From a virus, in IMG/VR virus record IMGVR_UViG_3300037189_019970, positions 1-20,597 of that record: 20,597 bases of DNA. One strand, 5' to 3'. The notes under the pieces are model-generated. The model was not told the DNA's origin. It saw only the letters and a list, made by a program, of their open reading frames with translations, and did no database searches. Of the stretch, positions 8,729-19,635 are shown in pieces (positions within the stretch are counted from its first letter, which is position 1; each line of letters opens with the position of its first letter). The position numbers and the translations under genes were made by a program.

Positions 8729-9217
8729 ATGGCTATTTTAAATCCAAACGAAATATTTTTTACATCCTTTGAACCGAAATTAAAGAATAGATTCTATATG
8801 TATGTAGAAGGAATTCCTAGTTACCTTATTAAGGGTGTAAGCGGTATGGGATTTACACAAGAAGAAATCACTCTTAACCATATAAATACTTACCGTAAAA
8901 TTAAAGGTAAATTAAAATGGAATGATTTATCACTAACGCTATTTGACCCAATCACTCCATCAGGTGCACAAGCCGTAATGGAATGGGTACGCCTCCACCA
9001 TGAATCAGTAACCGGACGTGACGGATACTCAGATTTTTATAAAAAGGATGTTAAAATTGAAGTATTAGGTCCTGTAGGTGATATAGTAAGTGAATGGATC
9101 ATCAAAGGTGCATTTATTAAATCTGCCGAATTTGGTGAATATAACTGGGATACTGAAGCTGAAGCTCAAAACTTAACTATGGTATTAGGTATGGATTACT
9201 GTATCTTGAACTACTAA
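8729..9217 (+). CDS. Tail tube protein, T4 gp19-like, 162 residues
   Basis: Subunit of the inner tail tube through which DNA passes. Length is essentially that of T4 gp19 (163). Visible family features are the opening strand RFYMYVEGIPSYLIKGVSG, the turn GFTQEEITLNH, the positively charged IKGKLKWNDLSLTLFDPI, a helix around SGAQAVMEWVRLHHESV, the KKDVKIEVLGPVGDIVSEW strand pair and the C-terminal GAFIKSAEFGEYNWDTEAEA-type ending, which is the standard gp19 fold order. It follows the sheath gene with its own promoter-like motif and is closed by a strong intrinsic terminator, which fits a gene expressed at very high level. Confidence 0.96.
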   Translation: MAILNPNEIFFTSFEPKLKNRFYMYVEGIPSYLIKGVSGMGFTQEEITLNHINTYRKIKGKLKWNDLSLTLFDPITPSGAQAVMEWVRLHHESVTGRDGYSDFYKKDVKIEVLGPVGDIVSEWIIKGAFIKSAEFGEYNWDTEAEAQNLTMVLGMDYCILNY

Positions 9218-9325: not shown

Positions 9326-10117
9326 ATGAGCGAATCAAATCCAAAAACAGAAATTACTTCTGAAAAGCCAAAATTCCCTACTGAATTTATTTCTTTACCT
9401 TCTAAAGGTTTACTTTACTCAAAAGGAAACCCCCTTTCTAATGGTAAAATTGAAATGAAATACATGACAGCTAAAGAGGAAGATATTCTTACTAACCAAA
9501 ATTACATTAAACAAGGAACAGTAATTGATAAATTATTGCAAGCTTTAATTGTATCTCCTATTAACTATGATGATTTAATCATTGGTGATAAAAATGCTAT
9601 TATGTTAGCAGCTCGTGTTTTAGGATACGGAGCAGAATACACTTTTGATTGGAACGGAGAAAAAGTAACAATAGATTTATCTACTTTAGAAGAAAAACCA
9701 TTTAATGAAAGTTTATTTGTTCCACATGAAAATGTGTTCTCATATACTTTACCTCATTCAAAAAATGAAATTACTTTTAAACTTTTAACTCATGGAGATG
9801 AAAGAAAAGTTGATGCTGAAGTAAAAGGATTACAAAAAATCAACAAAACAGCATCATATGAACTTTCTACCCGATTAAAACATATGATCATCTCAGTAAA
9901 TGGTGATTCTGAAAGAAAAACTGTTAGAGAATTTGTTGATAATTATCTTTTAGCTAGAGATTCCCAATCATTCAGAGAACATTTACGTAACATCACCCCA
10001 GATATTGATATGACTATTTCTTTTGAAACATCGGAAGGCCTACAGGAGGGGGTCAGATTACCTATGAATACTAGCTTTTTTTGGCCTGACGCCGGAATAT
10101 CGGATAAGTCTTTTTAA
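9326..10117 (+). CDS. T4 gp26-like baseplate hub / tail-assembly chaperone candidate, 263 residues
   Basis: The N-terminal 60 residues carry FISLPSKGLLYSKGNPLSNG and IEMKYMTAKEEDILTNQNYI, followed by KLLQALIVSPINYDDLIIGD, NAIMLAARVLGYGAEY and a D-W-N-G strand region. This is the pattern I associate with the T4 base plate family that contains gp26. Residues 150-225 are charged and helical with LARDSQSFREHLRNITPDI near the end. In the normal frame it ends FFWPDAGISDKSF with TAA at 10115-10117. The gene sits between the tail tube and tape measure genes, the position held in most long-tailed phages by the tail-assembly chaperones (lambda G/GT). A run of seven T (10076-10082) near its end overlaps a start-less open frame, so a longer 349-residue product is likely. 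The choice between hub subunit and chaperone is open. Confidence 0.7.
   Translation: MSESNPKTEITSEKPKFPTEFISLPSKGLLYSKGNPLSNGKIEMKYMTAKEEDILTNQNYIKQGTVIDKLLQALIVSPINYDDLIIGDKNAIMLAARVLGYGAEYTFDWNGEKVTIDLSTLEEKPFNESLFVPHENVFSYTLPHSKNEITFKLLTHGDERKVDAEVKGLQKINKTASYELSTRLKHMIISVNGDSERKTVREFVDNYLLARDSQSFREHLRNITPDIDMTISFETSEGLQEGVRLPMNTSFFWPDAGISDKSF
10044..10052 (+). other. Internal Shine-Dalgarno-like sequence upstream of slippery run
   Basis: AGGAGGGGG inside the gp26-like gene, 23 bases before the T run and 11 bases before an in-frame ATG (10064). Real start codons in this window almost never have such a sequence. It could stall ribosomes before the shift, as internal Shine-Dalgarno sites do in other frameshift cassettes, or initiate a short internal product. 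The distance is longer than in known stimulators. Confidence 0.35.
10076..10082 (+). promoter_or_regulatory. Candidate programmed ribosomal frameshift site (+1 or -2)
   Basis: AGC TTT TTT TGG in the gp26-like frame contains seven T in a row. A +1 shift (or -2) on TTT moves ribosomes into the next open frame, which reads GGC CTG ACG CCG and runs to 10376. A -1 shift meets TGA at 10087-10089 and is ruled out as a productive event. A 4-bp hairpin (CCGG AATA TCGG, 10092-10103) with a possible GAC/GTC extension lies shortly downstream. The site is read from the sequence; the shift itself is inferred. Confidence 0.6.
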
Positions 10118-10376
10118 GCAAATACATGATATAGTATATCACGGTAAAGGAGGATACGATTGGTTTACAATATATGAAATGCCTATTTGGTTAAGAAATT
10201 TTACTCATAAAATGATTGCCGATAGTGTAGATAAAGAAAACCAAAGATACCAAAATTCATATGGTAACAAAGGAAAAAAAGGAATGTCAAATTCTAATTC
10301 TACAGTTACTAATATAGATATAGGAAATCCTAATCAATCCGTAATAAGTGCTATAAAAAATAATCAACGAATTTAA
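10083..10376 (+). CDS. Frameshift-read C-terminal extension (tail-assembly chaperone-like), 97 residues
   Basis: This frame is open from 10068 to TAA 10374-10376. Its first ATG is at 10179 (65 codons), but the protein-like part starts earlier: GLTPEYRISLFKQIHDIVYH, then GKGGYDWFTIYEMPIWLRNF, then a charged helix and a polar Asn/Ser-rich tail. There is no ATG, GTG or TTG between 10068 and 10179, and the ATG at 10179 would cut through the compact YDWFTIYEMPIWLRNF segment. Entry by a frameshift from the gp26-like gene explains this and gives a 252 + 97 residue fusion. By position it resembles the T part of lambda GT, which recruits tube protein to the tape measure. A separate short protein from 10179 remains possible. 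Confidence 0.6.
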   Translation, partial: GLTPEYRISLFKQIHDIVYHGKGGYDWFTIYEMPIWLRNFTHKMIADSVDKENQRYQNSYGNKGKKGMSNSNSTVTNIDIGNPNQSVISAIKNNQRI

Positions 10377-10436: not shown

Positions 10437-13298
10437 ATGGCTAAAAAACCACCAGCTAAAGGCCCAGCAGCTGCTCCACCACCACCACCAGCACCTGATT
10501 ATTCAGGTGCAGTTGATACTTCTAAAGGATTGTTAAAAACAATGCAAAAGTTAGGTGATGTTCAAGGGAAAGTCGCTCAAGGTGCTAAAGATCTTACTAA
10601 ATCCTTTAATCAAACTGGTCAAGAAGTTGATAAAGCTGGAAAGAGTAAATTTTGGACAGTGGGTAAATCATCTATGGATGGGATGGTTAGTGGGGCTAAA
10701 CTATTGGGTAAGGGAATAACAGCTACTTTAAGCCCATTAGCTATGATGGCTAAAAAATTCCTAAGTGTAACATCTATAATAAGCTTTATTACCTCTGCTT
10801 ATGAAAAAGGTAAAGAAGCAGCAATGAAATTCAGTACTCAAAATACTGAATTAGCTAGAACAATGGGTTTAGCACAAGGGGAGGCATCTAAATTAGCTGG
10901 GCAAGCTAGAGCCATAGGAGCACAAATGGGTATTACTAATGACCAAGCTGTACAAGCCATGGGTCAAATATACTCAGCATTAGGGTCTACAGAAAAGCTT
11001 AGTCAAAGCACATTAAACACATTTATGAGATTAAGTGTATTTGCAGGAGTATCTGCAGATACATTAGCTGAATTAGCTAAAACTGCTAAAATTACAGGAC
11101 AAGATGCTGGAAAATTTGCAGATGCTGTTGCAGATACTTCATTAAGCTTTATTAAAGCCAATAAAATGGCAGTTAGTATGAAAAGCGTAATGGAGTCTGT
11201 AGGTAAAGTATCAGCATCTGTTAAATTAACATTAGGTGGTTCTGCTGAAGCTATTACAAAAGCAGTATTATCTTCTAAAAAATTAGGTATGGAACTTACA
11301 AAAGTTGAAGACATAGCTAATGGTTTATTAAACTTAGAAGACTCTATAGCTGCAGAAATGGAAGCAGAATTGCTTACTGGTAAAGATTTAAATTTAGAAA
11401 AAGCAAGAGAAGCAGCATTAAACGGTGATATGGTTACATTATCGGATGAGCTTGCTAAAAATATAGGAACTTCTGCAGATTTTGCTAAAATGAACCGGGT
11501 TCAACAAGAAGCTGCTGCAAAAGCTGTAGGTATGAATCGTGAAGAATTAGCTCAAACTTTAGCTAATCAAAAATCAATAGTAGCAGAAAATGGTAATTTA
11601 GTAGATAGCCAAAAAGATGGAGCTAAATCAATGGAATCTAGTGCTTCTATGGCTGAACAGTACCAAAGACGACAAGAAGGAATAGCTGCTGCTTTTATAG
11701 GAGTTTTCAAAGCATTAGAACCAGTTGTATTAATATTCCAAGAATTAGCTACTAAATTAGCTCCACCATTAGCTAAATTACTAAGTTCACTTGTTCCTAT
11801 AATAATGCCGATTGTAGATTTAATTGTACAATTAGTAGAATCATTTGCAAGTATTTTAAATGAACTTATTCCTCCAATAGTAGAAATTGTTAAAGTATTA
11901 GTAGATGCAGCTAAACCACTTATGCAAATCTTTATGGATATAATGGCAGCTATTCTCCCTCCTGTAAAGGCTCTTTTAGAAGCATTAATACCAGTTATAC
12001 AAGCAATATTTACTGCTCTTCAACCATTTTTTCTAGCAATGGCTGAACTTTCTAAAACGCTTATTCCTATAGTAGCAAGTATTCTTCAATCTCTTTTACC
12101 AATAATCCAATCAATATTTGAGGCAATTGCACCTATTATGACGCAGTTTGCTGAATTGATAACAAGTTTACTTCCAACTGTTAAGGATATTTTTACTGCT
12201 ATTATTCCTATAATCCAACTAATTATAGATGCGCTTAAGCCATTTATGCAAATCTTTATGGATTTGTTAAATATGCTGCTCCCCCCAATAGCACAGTTTA
12301 TAAAAGATTTAATTCCTATTATTCAAAAAATATTTGAAGCTCTTAAACCTGTAATTGAGGCATTTGCTGAATTAGCTAAAAAATTAGTTCCTATGATAGC
12401 GGAATTATTTAAAACTTTAGCTCCTGCAATACTTAAATTAGTAGATGCATTAATTCCTATCCTTACTATGGTTGCAGATCTAGCTGTAGATCTTATGCCC
12501 GTTGTTTTAGATATATTCCAAGCTTTACTACCAGCAATAATATCTTTAGTAGATGCTCTTATGCCTATTATAGAAATTATAATGGCAGTAATTAAACCTA
12601 TTTTAAATATTCTTATTCCTATAATTAAATTTGTAGCTAGTTTATTTGGTGATATAGTACAAATTTTAGCAGGTGTGTTGAAATTTATATTTGATATAAT
12701 AGGGGCAATAGCTAACTTTTTAGTACCTATAGTTGATGTAATTGCTGGAGTATTTAATGAAGTAGCTGTTATAATAGGGGGAATAATAGATTCTATAACA
12801 TGGTTTATAGATCTTTTAGTTGATGGAGTTATGAGTGCTGTAAATTCTATAGGAGATGCAATCAAATCTATAGGACAAGCAGTTAGACAATTTCTTATTG
12901 CTCCTATTAATTTAATTATTGAAGCTATTAACTGGTTTATTGATGGTATAAATGAAGCTCTCCGTATTGAAATGCCAGATTGGATGGGAGGTGGATCATG
13001 GAGTCCTAATCTTCCAAAATTAGAATTATTAGCGTTAGCAAAAGGAGGTATAGTTACATCACCAACTACTGCCCTTATTGGTGAAGCTGGTCCTGAAGCT
13101 GTTATTCCATTAGATAGATTCCATGATATAATGAATGAAGCATTTGCTCCTGTAGTACAATTATTAACATTAATGGTTGAAGGTGGAAAAATGCAAGCTG
13201 AAACTCTTGTAGCTATAAATAACAAAGAAGCAACTATTACCTTAGATGGTAATAAAATAGGAGAAGCATTAGTAACATCATTCTCTGGGTTATTTTAA
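10437..13298 (+). CDS. Tape measure protein, 953 residues
   Basis: Sets tail length during assembly and is expelled with DNA, as T4 gp29 or lambda gpH do. It opens with a Lys/Pro/Ala-rich stretch (residues 2-21), then a long helical region with a hydrophobic segment near 90-125 (SPLAMMAKKFLSVTSIISFI). Helices rich in Ala/Gln/Lys follow to about 435. Residues 441-732 are tandem repeats of about 36 residues with prolines at fixed places. A hydrophobic region follows (735-835), with the typical tape measure C-terminal motif at 870-890: GGIVTSPTTALIGEAGPEAV followed by IPLDRF. At 953 residues it predicts a tail of about 140 nm if 1.5 angstroms per residue holds. Two long open frames on the opposite strand are shadows of its repetitive coding. 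Confidence 0.93.
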   Translation: MAKKPPAKGPAAAPPPPPAPDYSGAVDTSKGLLKTMQKLGDVQGKVAQGAKDLTKSFNQTGQEVDKAGKSKFWTVGKSSMDGMVSGAKLLGKGITATLSPLAMMAKKFLSVTSIISFITSAYEKGKEAAMKFSTQNTELARTMGLAQGEASKLAGQARAIGAQMGITNDQAVQAMGQIYSALGSTEKLSQSTLNTFMRLSVFAGVSADTLAELAKTAKITGQDAGKFADAVADTSLSFIKANKMAVSMKSVMESVGKVSASVKLTLGGSAEAITKAVLSSKKLGMELTKVEDIANGLLNLEDSIAAEMEAELLTGKDLNLEKAREAALNGDMVTLSDELAKNIGTSADFAKMNRVQQEAAAKAVGMNREELAQTLANQKSIVAENGNLVDSQKDGAKSMESSASMAEQYQRRQEGIAAAFIGVFKALEPVVLIFQELATKLAPPLAKLLSSLVPIIMPIVDLIVQLVESFASILNELIPPIVEIVKVLVDAAKPLMQIFMDIMAAILPPVKALLEALIPVIQAIFTALQPFFLAMAELSKTLIPIVASILQSLLPIIQSIFEAIAPIMTQFAELITSLLPTVKDIFTAIIPIIQLIIDALKPFMQIFMDLLNMLLPPIAQFIKDLIPIIQKIFEALKPVIEAFAELAKKLVPMIAELFKTLAPAILKLVDALIPILTMVADLAVDLMPVVLDIFQALLPAIISLVDALMPIIEIIMAVIKPILNILIPIIKFVASLFGDIVQILAGVLKFIFDIIGAIANFLVPIVDVIAGVFNEVAVIIGGIIDSITWFIDLLVDGVMSAVNSIGDAIKSIGQAVRQFLIAPINLIIEAINWFIDGINEALRIEMPDWMGGGSWSPNLPKLELLALAKGGIVTSPTTALIGEAGPEAVIPLDRFHDIMNEAFAPVVQLLTLMVEGGKMQAETLVAINNKEATITLDGNKIGEALVTSFSGLF
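11757..12632 (+). repeat. 36-residue (108-base) tandem repeats in tape measure protein
   Basis: Eight consecutive units start at residues 441, 477, 517, 553, 589, 625, 661 and 697. Units 3 to 7 are exactly 36 residues with prolines at unit positions 3, 14 and 28. The second unit is 40 residues, with four extra residues before its middle proline. The first lacks the third proline and the last drifts. Typical unit text: LIPIIQKIFEALKPVIEAFA followed by ELAKKLVP. DNA identity between units is low, so the repeat is old or under protein-level selection. Confidence 0.85.
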
Positions 13299-15981: not shown

Positions 15982-18900
15982 ATGGGAAATTTAACCGGAG
16001 AACCATTCCAGGAAGGGGTAACAAAACAAATTGACATTAGACAACGCCGTTTAGGAAAACTCAACCGCTCCCCAGAAGATTTAGTATTCTATAATAGTAG
16101 TACAGCATTCTTAAGATTAGCGTCTTCAATCGATGTTGAGTGTCCTGTAGATCCTAGTGGTAATGTAAATCCTAATCTTCCTATAGAAAAACTCCCATTT
16201 CTTACTCCGGCTTCGGATTATATTGGAAATAACTTAGCTAGAAAATGTGTATTGTTTGGAGGAACTATAGATATTTCCAATAGTAAAGATTTAACCTCAG
16301 AAAAAGCATTAGAAGCAGCATTAAATGGAACTACTACTGATCCTTCATTAAATTTTGGCCTTAATTTAGATCCATTTTCTAGACCATTAATAGGAGCATA
16401 TGGGTGGGGAGGAATTCATCAAGGATATAAACCTATGCCTGCTATAATGTCTACTAATATATCATATTATAATAGAGGAGCAATAGCAAAAGCAACAGTA
16501 AAAATACAAGTTAATAGTATTAAACAGCTTGAAATTATTGATGTTCTTTATTGTAGAGTAGGATATACTATGCTTCTTGAATGGGGAAATACTATGTATT
16601 TTAATAATAATAATGAATTAGAAGCATTTAATAATTTTTCCACTGAACCTCTAATTGGTTTTTTTAATGGTTCTGCTACTCAAAATGATATCATAGCATA
16701 TATTAAAAAAGAAAGAGAAACACATTCTTTTAATTATGATGCAATGTTAGGAAAAGTAGTTAATTTTAAATATGATTATAAACCTGAAGGGTATGAAGTA
16801 GAGTTAACTCTTATAGGTATGGGGGACGTAATTGAGAATTTTAAAATTAATAAAGGAACTGGAAAAACGGTAGATCCTAATGCTTTAAGTGAAAAGGCAA
16901 GTACTAGAAAAGAACAAGCAAAGAAAGCTTTAGAAGATGCTAAATCACAATTAAATGCACTTTGGAGTGATAGAGGTAATAAGATAGGATTTAAATTAAA
17001 TTTAGATGATACTGTTAATACCTTTTATAATAACGCTGGACAAGCTCCGGACATTGCATCTTTTAAAGCTGGAGATGATAGTTGGTTAAATAGTACTTCT
17101 ACACTGTACATACAAAAGCTAGAAGAAGTAGCTACATTTATGCAAAAACAGCATTGGCAAAACCCTTCAGTTCAAATTAATGGGGTTGGAGTTGGAGGAT
17201 TCACAGACTTCCATTATAAAGCATTAGGAGTAACAACAGATATCTCCCAACCTAAAACTGATTATAAAGTTGCAGATATAAATAATAACCCACTGTTTTT
17301 AGGAGCAGCTGGAGATAAACTTGCTGCATTTGCCCAACAATTAAAATCAGCTGTATCCGCTGTTAAATCAGCAACAGCTAATATTACTAATACTGACGCT
17401 GCATTTGATCAAGCAAAAGTAATTGAAAGTAATGCTATTGTACAAAATCAAAGTAGATGTAGCCTTACTCAATGGTTATATGATAACGTATATAGAAAGA
17501 GCCAAGCTGAAGCTACAGTAGCTATTGGAGCTTATTCTAATGGTTTTACCAACCCTGTCCTAAAAATACCTTTTAAAAAACATGAGGGGCAAAGTAGCTG
17601 TAATTTTGAACAAGCATATATTAAATTAGGAGTTTTATTTAGTTATTTAAGAAATGAACTTTTAGTATATGATAGTTCTAAAACAAATGCCGCCCCTGAA
17701 CAAAAAGCTACTAGCTTATCTACAGGAGTACCAATTGATGTTGGAGTTCCCTTTTTTGATTTTGATTTAGATAGGATTAAAACAGTTTGTATGAATTTCC
17801 CCAACCAAATGTCCGGAAACCCAGAAATATGTGTTATTCCTTTTAATTATTATGATAAAGAAACTCTTAAAACTCCTATAGATGGAAAAACTAAAGTTAC
17901 TGCAGTATATAATTTTAATTTAATAGGAGTTGAAGATGACAATAGCGGATATATAGTAAAAGGAAACCCATATCTAGGAAGACCTTTAGACATATATGTT
18001 AACATTAATCATATAACTAATTGTATTGATTCTTCCACGGATGCATATGGTAAAACAAGTATGTTACCATTTTTAAAATCAGTAATAAATGGTATAAATG
18101 TTGCTTTAGGTGGAATTAATAGATTATCTATAGGATATGATGCTGAAATTAATTCTATAAAATTAATAGAGGAACATAATTTACAATATGAAGAATTAAT
18201 GACCGGAGGTGAAATAGCTACTTTTAATGTTTATGGAATAGCTAATGCTCCCGTACAGCAATCCCAAGAACAAACTACATCTCCTAATGTAAGTAATTTA
18301 TGGGGAAGTTTTGTTACTGACGCCAATTTTAGTATTAAAATCCCACCTAACATGGCAGCTATGGCCTCTATCTCAGCCCAAGCTTCCGGGAATATAGTAG
18401 GAGAAAATGCTACAGGATTATCTAAACTTAATAAAGGATTAACAGATAGAATTATTACTTTTAAACTTGACCCAGCTTCTATAGGACTCCCAACTCCTGG
18501 AGAAGCTAGTGATCCTACAGTAATTTTTGGAAAGAATTTAGATCTTCAATCAACTCTTTTTAAAGCAATTTATATTGATAAATTTTTAGATAAAGACTCA
18601 ATTTCAAGTTTAGTAGATATTAATAAAGACCTAGCTTTTTATATCACAGGATTTGCGGCTGAAAAAGAAAAAATGCCACCCCCATTTTTCCTCCCATTTG
18701 ACTTACAACTTACAATGAATGGCCTTTCAGGAATAACTAACTATCAAAGATTTGCAGTAACTGAAAATATTCTTCCAACTACTTATAAAACATCTGTAGT
18801 AAAAGATGATAATACAAATCAAACTGTTACTCAAGGGATTATAGATTTTCTTATTAAAGGAATATCTCATAATATTGCTGGAAATAAATGGACTACTACT

Positions 18901-18987
18901 ATTGATAGTTTAACTGTAATTTCAAATAGATTTTCACGCTCAAAAGGATCTATAACTGTGACTAATACACAGACTAATACACAATAA
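15982..18987 (+). CDS. Large baseplate/hub structural protein candidate, 1001 residues
   Basis: No single family is certain. The N-terminal part (1-290) has IDIRQRRLGKLNRSPEDLVF, a SRPLIGAYGWGGIHQGYKPM segment, ISYYNRGAIAKATVKIQVNS, and IIDVLYCRVGYTMLLEWGNT, then strands to about 290 (NFKYDYKPEGYEVELTLIGM). The strand-helix order SI-YYNRGA-VKI-QL-LY-GYTMLLEWG suggests a hub-type beta domain; similar segments recur in unannotated myovirus baseplate genes as I recall. Residues about 305-325 form a short coiled coil, followed by a polar helical insertion with SAVSAVKSATANI. The second half has further strands, such as GNPYLGRPLDIYVNINHITN and EINSIKLIEEHNL. Its size, and its position between the LysM wedge gene and a lysozyme gene, fit a gp27/gp5-type hub. 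It contains at least eight cysteines. Confidence 0.45.
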   Translation: MGNLTGEPFQEGVTKQIDIRQRRLGKLNRSPEDLVFYNSSTAFLRLASSIDVECPVDPSGNVNPNLPIEKLPFLTPASDYIGNNLARKCVLFGGTIDISNSKDLTSEKALEAALNGTTTDPSLNFGLNLDPFSRPLIGAYGWGGIHQGYKPMPAIMSTNISYYNRGAIAKATVKIQVNSIKQLEIIDVLYCRVGYTMLLEWGNTMYFNNNNELEAFNNFSTEPLIGFFNGSATQNDIIAYIKKERETHSFNYDAMLGKVVNFKYDYKPEGYEVELTLIGMGDVIENFKINKGTGKTVDPNALSEKASTRKEQAKKALEDAKSQLNALWSDRGNKIGFKLNLDDTVNTFYNNAGQAPDIASFKAGDDSWLNSTSTLYIQKLEEVATFMQKQHWQNPSVQINGVGVGGFTDFHYKALGVTTDISQPKTDYKVADINNNPLFLGAAGDKLAAFAQQLKSAVSAVKSATANITNTDAAFDQAKVIESNAIVQNQSRCSLTQWLYDNVYRKSQAEATVAIGAYSNGFTNPVLKIPFKKHEGQSSCNFEQAYIKLGVLFSYLRNELLVYDSSKTNAAPEQKATSLSTGVPIDVGVPFFDFDLDRIKTVCMNFPNQMSGNPEICVIPFNYYDKETLKTPIDGKTKVTAVYNFNLIGVEDDNSGYIVKGNPYLGRPLDIYVNINHITNCIDSSTDAYGKTSMLPFLKSVINGINVALGGINRLSIGYDAEINSIKLIEEHNLQYEELMTGGEIATFNVYGIANAPVQQSQEQTTSPNVSNLWGSFVTDANFSIKIPPNMAAMASISAQASGNIVGENATGLSKLNKGLTDRIITFKLDPASIGLPTPGEASDPTVIFGKNLDLQSTLFKAIYIDKFLDKDSISSLVDINKDLAFYITGFAAEKEKMPPPFFLPFDLQLTMNGLSGITNYQRFAVTENILPTTYKTSVVKDDNTNQTVTQGIIDFLIKGISHNIAGNKWTTTIDSLTVISNRFSRSKGSITVTNTQTNTQ

Positions 18988-18990
18988 CCT

Positions 18991-19635
18991 ATGAATTTTA
19001 ACTCTCCTTCTACAGCCACCTCAGATTTTTTTATCCGAATTCAAGCTTTGATAGATACTATTGCTTGGAGTGAAGGTACTGACTTAAAAAATGAGAATAT
19101 TGGGTATAACATGATAATAGATGGTATACCAAATGATGGGACAACTAAATATACAGGTACATATGCTTCATATAGTAAACCTAATACTTTAGAAAAATGG
19201 GGAAGAAGTTATATTAATGGAGATTCTAAATTTAATAATCACCCTAACATTTTAATTAAATGGAAGCAAGGATCTGATACTAATCAAAATAATTTTTCAA
19301 GTGCTGCTGGGAGATACCAGATCCTAGCTCCTATATGGAAAGATCTTGCGAGTAAATATTTTATTGATAATTTTTCCCCATCTAACCAAGATAAAATATG
19401 TTTAGCAATGATTGAGAGAGCTCTTCCATATGTTAAACAAGGTAAATGGGAATTAGCTATTACTTCTATTTGTAAATCCTGGCCTTCTCTCCCAGGTTCA
19501 GGATATTTAGATCAAACCGCATACCCTGTAAATAAAATATTATCTAAACTTAAAGAATATTACCAAACAAATAAACCTCTTCCCCCAGAAACTGCTGTTT
19601 TTTGTAACCAATATTTTTCTTTTTATCTTTCATGA
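18991..19635 (+). CDS. Lambda R-type lytic transglycosylase (GH104), probably tail-associated, 214 residues
   Basis: Expected to cleave the glycan strands of peptidoglycan by transglycosylation. It aligns by eye along its length with lambda endolysin R: LIDTIAWSEGTD (lambda LDMLAWSEGTD), GYNMIIDG (GYDVIVGG), AAGRYQILAPIWKDLASKYF at 105-124 (GAGRYQLLSRWWDAYRKQLG), FSPSNQDKICLAMIERALP (FSPKSQDAVALQQIKERGALP) and WPSLPGSGY (WASLPGAGY). The Glu of SEGTD, here E28, corresponds to the essential E19 of lambda R. At 214 residues it exceeds lambda R (158), mostly through about 30 extra residues between GYNMIIDG and the HP motif (NHPNILIKWKQG). There is no signal peptide. It overlaps the next gene by four bases (ATGA) and sits amid baseplate genes with no holin or spanin visible, which suggests a virion enzyme used at infection, like T4 gp5, rather than a release lysin. 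Confidence 0.85.
   Translation: MNFNSPSTATSDFFIRIQALIDTIAWSEGTDLKNENIGYNMIIDGIPNDGTTKYTGTYASYSKPNTLEKWGRSYINGDSKFNNHPNILIKWKQGSDTNQNNFSSAAGRYQILAPIWKDLASKYFIDNFSPSNQDKICLAMIERALPYVKQGKWELAITSICKSWPSLPGSGYLDQTAYPVNKILSKLKEYYQTNKPLPPETAVFCNQYFSFYLS

Follow-up and report, generated by a model that had tools for sequence, protein, structure and literature searches.

Programmed +1 ribosomal frameshifting as the probable source of two products from a gp26-type phage tail-assembly chaperone gene

The comparisons presented here indicate that a gp26-type tail-assembly chaperone gene in viral DNA (IMG/VR record IMGVR_UViG_3300037189_019970) very probably gives rise to two products by programmed +1 ribosomal frameshifting. 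The window, by which we mean the whole stretch of 20,597 bases analysed, carries a contractile-tail module with sheath, tube, the gp26-like gene, an overlapping small frame and the tape measure gene. The features of concern are the following.

8729..9217, + strand: tail tube protein gene (context, upstream; PHROG_4542, E = 1.8e-23)
9326..10117, + strand: gp26-like gene, 0-frame short product of 263 aa, G-like (PHROG_150, Pfam T4_baseplate, AlphaFold2)
9326..10376, + strand: predicted +1 fusion of 349 aa, GT/gp51-like (translation; profile alignment with cyanophage -1 fusions, E = 3.9e-8)
10043..10052, + strand: SD-like purine tract CAGGAGGGGG, putative stimulator, 24-33 nt 5′ of the first slip-site codon
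10076..10082, + strand: slip site UUU UUU U(GG) (codon conservation in relatives; TTC variants)
10082..10090, + strand: UGG CCU GAC in the 0 frame, with UGG as putative A-site codon; the +1 reading is GGC CUG AC(G) (TGG in 79/80, CCT in 79/80, GAC in 76/80 loci)
10083..10376, + strand: C-terminal domain GLTPEYR..., +1 frame, 97 aa plus stop, gp51-C/T-like (out of frame in 80/80 relatives; conserved in alignment)
10437..13298, + strand: tape measure protein gene (context, downstream; PHROG_58, E = 4.2e-32)

A preliminary description of the window had outlined this arrangement, and its coordinates for the gp26-like ORF (9326-10117) and for the run TTTTTTT (10076-10082, in the frame AGC TTT TTT TGG) are correct. 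As had been reported, the second frame is already open at 10068; its first ATG, GTG or TTG in the window sequence is the ATG at 10179, and it ends with the TAA at 10374-10376. A -1 slip on the run would lead to TGA after two codons, which holds for the window and for 210 of the 211 distinct sites described below. The location between the tail tube and tape measure genes, where the gene pairs for lambda G/GT-type chaperones lie, was borne out by the profile matches on the 5′ (PHROG_4542) and 3′ (PHROG_58) sides, and the annotation of the isolate immuto, a phage of Flavobacterium sp. LMO8, gives the same order. Elsewhere in the structural module, positions 18991-19635 encode a lysozyme/endolysin-like protein (PHROG_90, E = 1.8e-24; PHROG_17230), and positions 15982-18987, after a baseplate wedge-like gene, encode a 1001-aa protein that no PHROG profile matched at E = 0.001. 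The window contains no tRNA genes, and an Rfam search of it gave no matches.

Relatives were collected in several ways. IMG/VR was scanned with the gp26-like protein; one of the six search peptides contains FFW, and 80 loci with 75 distinct junctions were kept. A second scan used the bare 15-mer TTTYTTTGGCCTGAC and gave at least 120 stretches; of the 119 loci taken from it, 80 were read individually and 39 entered by pattern alone, and several contigs are shared with the protein scan. The third scan, which served as a test of direction, was restricted to sites with a first codon ending in a base other than T and gave 43 stretches, 42 of them homologous. Because the 15-mer and UUC-type patterns fix most of the site, including the pyrimidine of codon 1, statements about invariance rest on the 80 protein-scan loci. 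Together, 79 protein-scan loci, the isolates immuto and Mel-JY01, 118 loci from the 15-mer scan, the window and the 42 UUC-type loci make 242 sites, which collapse to 211 distinct sites when grouped by the surrounding 250 nt: 170 with UUUUUU, 15 with TTTCTT and 26 with TTCTTT, the last being the distinct UUC-type sites (L063 among them). Left out were a UAC variant whose BLAST start is offset (L024) and two chance hits (L113, from the 15-mer scan, and L340). For some analyses the set was thinned to below 80% identity, which leaves 138 sites.

In all 80 relatives from the protein scan, the C domain is shifted by +1/-2 against the gp26-like gene and stays open across the gp26 stop, a shared frame relation that is far beyond chance. 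The relatives include proteins just 29-38% identical to those of the window. The conserved part of the C frame begins at the GGC at 10083 (GLT...); in the 0 frame, the end of the product varies beyond WPD. After the junction, mismatches in the C frame amount to 0.541, 0.465 and 0.636 at codon positions 1-3, a three-base periodicity that speaks weakly for this frame, since the same ungapped measure shows none on the gp26-like gene upstream (0.694, 0.670 and 0.660). The window has a start-less second frame that overlaps the first gene and joins it near its end at a conserved slip site, as in lambda G/GT. The earlier suggestion of a programmed shift that joins the two frames is supported by this comparison through the overlap, frame and slip site conserved in relatives. 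The putative frameshift has been missed in the annotation of immuto and SP-15, where a short hypothetical gene begins inside the C frame. Searches of named phages with the C domains of two divergent relatives gave only Mel-JY01 in one case and nothing in the other.

The junction UUU YUU UGG CCU GAC is near-invariant. Among the 80 protein-scan loci, codon 0 is TTT in 79 and TTC in one, and codon 1 is TTT in 77 and CTT in three, so that it is UUU or CUU throughout. The putative A-site codon is TGG in 79 loci and TAC in one, followed by CCT (79; CCA in one) and then GAC (76), GAG (3) or GAA (1). The site is kept in the isolates, as TTT CTT TGG in immuto and TTT TTT TGG CCT AAG in Mel-JY01, and all but one of the 80 examined loci of the bare 15-mer scan lie in this gene context, the exception being a chance hit. 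Of four further loci found in metagenome bins, one (L353) is cut off; the three that were read have the C domain in +1 after UUU UUU UGG (L351, L352) or UUU UUU UUC (L350). The non-UGG codons of L350 (UUC) and L024 (UAC) indicate that UGG is not strictly required. The four bins carry the labels Winogradskyella, Flavobacteriales, Sphingobacteriales and uncultured bacterium, which hints that part of the clade may infect Bacteroidota.

The final frame is the same whether ribosomes shift by +1 or by -2, and the preliminary description had left this choice open. A -2 shift, which would add one Phe (NTSFFFGLTPEYR), has a precedent in phage Mu, according to a review. It is compatible with the window, where the P-site UUU would re-pair two bases back on UUU, and with UUU CUU sites, where tRNA-Leu(GAG) could pair with UUC. 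The 42 homologous stretches of the direction test all read TTC TTT TGG CCT GAC, with a T run just four long, and all have the C domain in +1. These loci favour +1, because a -2 shift would put tRNA-Phe on UCU, whereas +1 moves it from UUU to UUU. Distant relatives also keep the C domain in the same frame, at UUC UUU CGU in GXN1, UUU CUA in LR756508, UUU UUU CAC in SP-15 and UUU UUU UGG in RM378. At the 42 loci, GXN1 and LR756508 a -2 shift would need a mid-codon mismatch, yet the frame is kept, and each of them allows the tRNA to re-pair well after a +1 move. These loci settle the choice for +1 as far as comparison of sequences goes, and we regard a -2 shift as improbable. The two shifts predict different tryptic junction peptides for the window, LPMNTSFFGLTPEYR for +1 and LPMNTSFFFGLTPEYR for -2.

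A second line of evidence comes from the base before the slip site. In none of the 170 distinct UUU UUU sites is this base a T, against a third-base baseline of 40% T. A T does precede the run in 11 of the 41 sites in which the run is broken by an internal C (Fisher p = 4.5e-9 for the difference, uncorrected for relatedness). With a T in this position UUU UUU would become part of the -1 heptamer U_UUU_UUU, and the avoidance of T fits selection for a clean +1 site. The canonical -1 heptamer X_XXY_YYZ is thus absent from the 170 UUU UUU sites, and the C domain is not in the -1 frame.

It might also be supposed that the two frames encode independent proteins, the C domain being started by reinitiation or at a non-standard start codon. 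Mel-JY01 is annotated with two overlapping genes, and at 122 of the 211 distinct sites the C frame contains some ATG, GTG or TTG no later than C codon +4. In the cyanophage-type relatives considered below, an ATG in the C frame just after the gp26 stop makes reinitiation possible; Cygsa01, where a clear heptamer is missing, also carries an ATG there. The other 89 distinct sites, the window included, are start-less over the same interval, and the C frame of the window has no ATG, GTG or TTG from 10068 to 10178. The preliminary description had held that homologues with a conserved in-frame ATG near 10083 or 10179 and no overlap would speak against the shift; no such ATG that would serve all relatives was found among the 211 distinct sites. 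Conservation begins at GGC directly after the slip site, and the avoidance of T before UUU UUU is a signature of frameshifting. A CUG start in GGC CTG was considered and rejected, the codon being CAG in L063 and CTA in L083. We consider two independent proteins to be quite improbable.

Transcriptional slippage on the T7 run would produce mRNAs that are one base shorter or two bases longer, and seven consecutive T residues are indeed present in the window and in most relatives. A C interrupts the run in 41 of the 211 distinct sites (15 TTTCTT and 26 TTCTTT), where the frame relation persists, and the codons around the run are constrained as well. The broken runs and the isolates argue against slippage, which we hold to be very unlikely, and also against a sequencing or assembly error that conceals a single real frame. 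An error had been raised earlier because the site is a homopolymer, and can be dismissed: it could not recur in 80/80 contigs and in immuto and Mel-JY01, also where the run is broken.

Selection on the nucleotide sequence is concentrated around the site. In the 138 thinned sites, the departure of synonymous codon choice from the gene's own usage gives z of at most 3.6 at codons -45 to -16, rising to 5.6-62.9 at codons -15 to -1 and to 20.5-213 at codons 0 to +5, leaving aside UGG, for which there is no synonymous codon. For the C frame z is 9.5-281 at codons 0-6, in part a consequence of these bases being shared by the two reading frames; further on it is mostly below 5, apart from smaller peaks (5.3-14.2) at codons 13, 16, 17, 20, 33, 34 and 37. 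The codon usage of the gp26-like gene was the baseline for both frames.

The upstream constraint includes a purine-rich tract resembling a Shine-Dalgarno (SD) sequence. Strong pairing with the anti-SD is seen at -38..-18 in 108 of the 138 thinned sites, compared with four in a control interval; at -14..-2 it is seen in nine, compared with three. The SD-like 8-mers start mostly at -33, -30 and -23. At codon -10, Glu is encoded by GAG in 101 of 111 cases, compared with 18% (599/3319) upstream. By site type, the tract is present in 129/170 UUUUUU, 14/14 UUUCUU and 10/26 UUCUUU sites, a fifteenth UUUCUU site being too near its contig end for this count. These patterns suggest that the distant SD-like tract is strongly selected. 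A tract this far upstream would lie outside the ribosome when the slip codon sits in the P site, and we know of no precedent for an SD-like tract at a distance of about 23-33 nt. Internal initiation from the tract was considered and rejected, as start codons are not conserved at any constant distance.

RNA structure was also considered. RNAalifold gave no consensus structure over four stretches around the site, and no hairpin was supported beyond column composition: for hairpin A p was 0.062, and for hairpin B p was 0.0005, yet one of its three shifted controls reached 0.001. The mean fold z for 60 of the 138 sites was -0.81 (-60..0), -0.70 (+20..+80) and -0.46 (+60..+120), and -0.22 and -0.05 in two upstream controls.

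The short product is assigned to the gp26 type by profile and predicted fold. It matches the baseplate hub profile PHROG_150 over residues 14-253 (E = 5.5e-10) and Pfam T4_baseplate at E = 0.0016, the latter with 18.6 bits, under the cut-off of 24.5. AlphaFold2 predicts its fold with a pLDDT of 93 and a pTM of 0.86, and among the predicted structures of BFVD the model matches the SP-15 baseplate hub subunit (E = 1.2e-17, TM 0.77/0.82), which points to a gp26-type fold. A search by sequence found no solved structures, and Foldseek found nothing significant for the short product in the PDB, where the HK97 chaperone 2ob9 had E = 2.4 and a probability of 0.25. When 989 chains were compared with VIA-align, five entries had Z of at least 2, led by the chaperone YqbN (5.2), the HK97 tail assembly chaperone (4.4) and a protein of unknown function from a PICI-like element (3.6). 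Such Z values may reflect common arrangements, and all these PDB fold matches fall short of the usual thresholds of trust. Taken with the gene position, this ranking would favour a lambda G/GT-like role. The record of Acinetobacter phage Stupor names its gp26 'tape measure protein assembly chaperone'.

A related organization may exist in cyanophage-type relatives. In a cyanophage-type set of 80 loci (L227-L306; 53 distinct), gp26 is directly followed by a C domain in the -1 frame that is open across the gp26 stop. Each of the 53 distinct loci has T_TTT_TTC before the gp26 stop and an ATG just after it, and an SD-like tract is present within -38..-6 in 49 of them, compared with none of 53 in the control. 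The tract (e.g., GGAGGG) lies ~9 nt 5′ of the heptamer; Sf-FS3 is annotated with two genes. The arrangement presumably resembles the dnaX-type -1 frameshift. The small frame corresponds to PHROG_634, 'baseplate hub assembly catalyst', named after gp51; the profile gave no match to the small frame of Mel-JY01. In phiAS5, IC12, RL38J1, RAS14 and XacN1 the C domain is likewise in -1 and adjoins U_UUU_UUN, and in Cygsa01 it is in -1 with an ATG right after the stop. The gp26-type genes of the jumbo phages RAS14 (L088), XacN1 (L089) and LR756511 (L090) have their -1 C domain at T_TTT_TTT or T_TTT_TTC. It is likely, judging from the 53 cyanophage-type loci, that cyanophage-type gp26 genes use a -1 version of the shift. 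The preliminary description had considered such a cassette unusual for a gp26-type gene; this needs revision, the +1 cassette being general in the clade of the window and a -1 version likely in the cyanophage type.

In T4 itself, the hub assembly chaperones gp26 (208 aa) and gp51 (249 aa) have PF12322 and PHROG_150 as shared profile matches. Genes 26 and 51 (L210) are paralogues that are neighbours on opposite strands, and gp51 is longer by a C-terminal extension of ~48 residues. Of the two proteins gp51 alone reaches the end of PHROG_150, and its C-terminal part also matches PHROG_634. Profile alignments that span the junction connect the fusion of the window with the cyanophage -1 fusion (probability 95.0, E = 3.9e-8), and the cyanophage fusion with the T4 gp51 family (probability 97.8, E = 9.4e-13). 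Compared directly, the window fusion matches gp51 weakly (E = 0.028, probability 1.8) and gp26 not at all (E = 0.28). The short product is thus most likely the counterpart of gp26, and the fusion, by way of the intermediates, the counterpart of gp51, which would include the C-terminal extension. T4 seems to have exchanged the shift for two genes, to judge from these alignments.

We infer from conserved sequence how the two products would arise and act; this applies to the occurrence and frequency of the shift, to pausing at UGG, to what the SD-like tract does and to the function as a chaperone. Most ribosomes would read UUU UUU UGG in the 0 frame and terminate at 10117, giving the short form. 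Some would pause with UGG, a likely pause codon, in the A site; the P-site tRNA-Phe would then move from the UUU at 10079-10081 to the UUU at 10080-10082, and reading would go on at the GGC at 10083 to give the 349-aa fusion. If lambda G/GT is a guide, the tape measure protein would be coated by the short form, and the fusion, the rarer of the two, would bring in tail tube subunits through its C-terminal domain. In T4 this pair would be split between two paralogous genes, 26 for the short form and 51 for the long form.

Several known systems share parts of this organization. Lambda G/GT-type fusions are made at a few per cent, and both products are absent from the virion and bind tape measure and tube. 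With lambda G/GT and its counterparts in P2, Mu and HSTV-2 the window has in common the position between tube and tape measure genes, a short and a (here predicted) frameshift-extended product, and a second frame that lacks a start. It differs from lambda in having a putative +1 shift at YUU_UGG instead of a -1 heptamer, an SD-like tract 24-33 nt 5′, and a gp26-type protein of ~250 aa, longer than lambda gpG at ~140 aa. The cyanophage-type loci share with the window the out-of-frame C domain directly after gp26 and open across its stop, but differ in the -1 frame, U_UUU_UUC, the SD-like tract only ~9 nt away and an ATG after the stop that would allow reinitiation.

The prfB (RF2) site CUU_UGA resembles the window in that a P-site YUU would slide onto UUU before a slow A-site codon beginning with U. 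In contrast to prfB, the A-site codon here is the sense codon UGG (79/80 loci) and not an in-frame stop. The SD of prfB lies 3 nt upstream of its slip site, whereas the window has no SD within a few nucleotides 5′ of the slip codon.

Frameshifted tail chaperones are already known; what would be new here is the +1 direction at a sense codon, the T4 gp26 family and the distant SD-like element. A review names -1, -2 and +1 cases of G-T frameshifting and describes T4 as the exception. No report of a gp26/gp51 frameshift was found in the literature, among the matches listed. That G and GT can be encoded by two paralogous genes with no frameshift has been published for the tail chaperonin gp143/gp144 of 0305phi8-36 (PMC2147016). 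The proposal for T4 concerns other proteins, and the section on gp143/gp144 shows no frameshifting relatives from their family.

Finally, we lean towards the view that the G/GT two-product system reaches T4-type phages, with +1 frameshifting at YUU_UGG in the clade described here, -1 frameshifting at U_UUU_UUC in the cyanophage type, and separate genes 26 and 51 in T4, and that the +1 site combines a sense codon with a selected SD-like tract ~23-33 nt 5′, which, lying beyond the usual reach of the ribosome, would be a new kind of +1 stimulator. If gp26 is the short form and gp51 the fusion form, the exceptional status of T4 vanishes. In that case gp51 would also acquire a function open to testing, that of recruiting the tube as the partner of a tape measure chaperone. 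With its clear sequence rules and its upstream element, the clade offers, in 211 distinct sites, an extensive natural collection for the study of +1 frameshifting at a sense codon.
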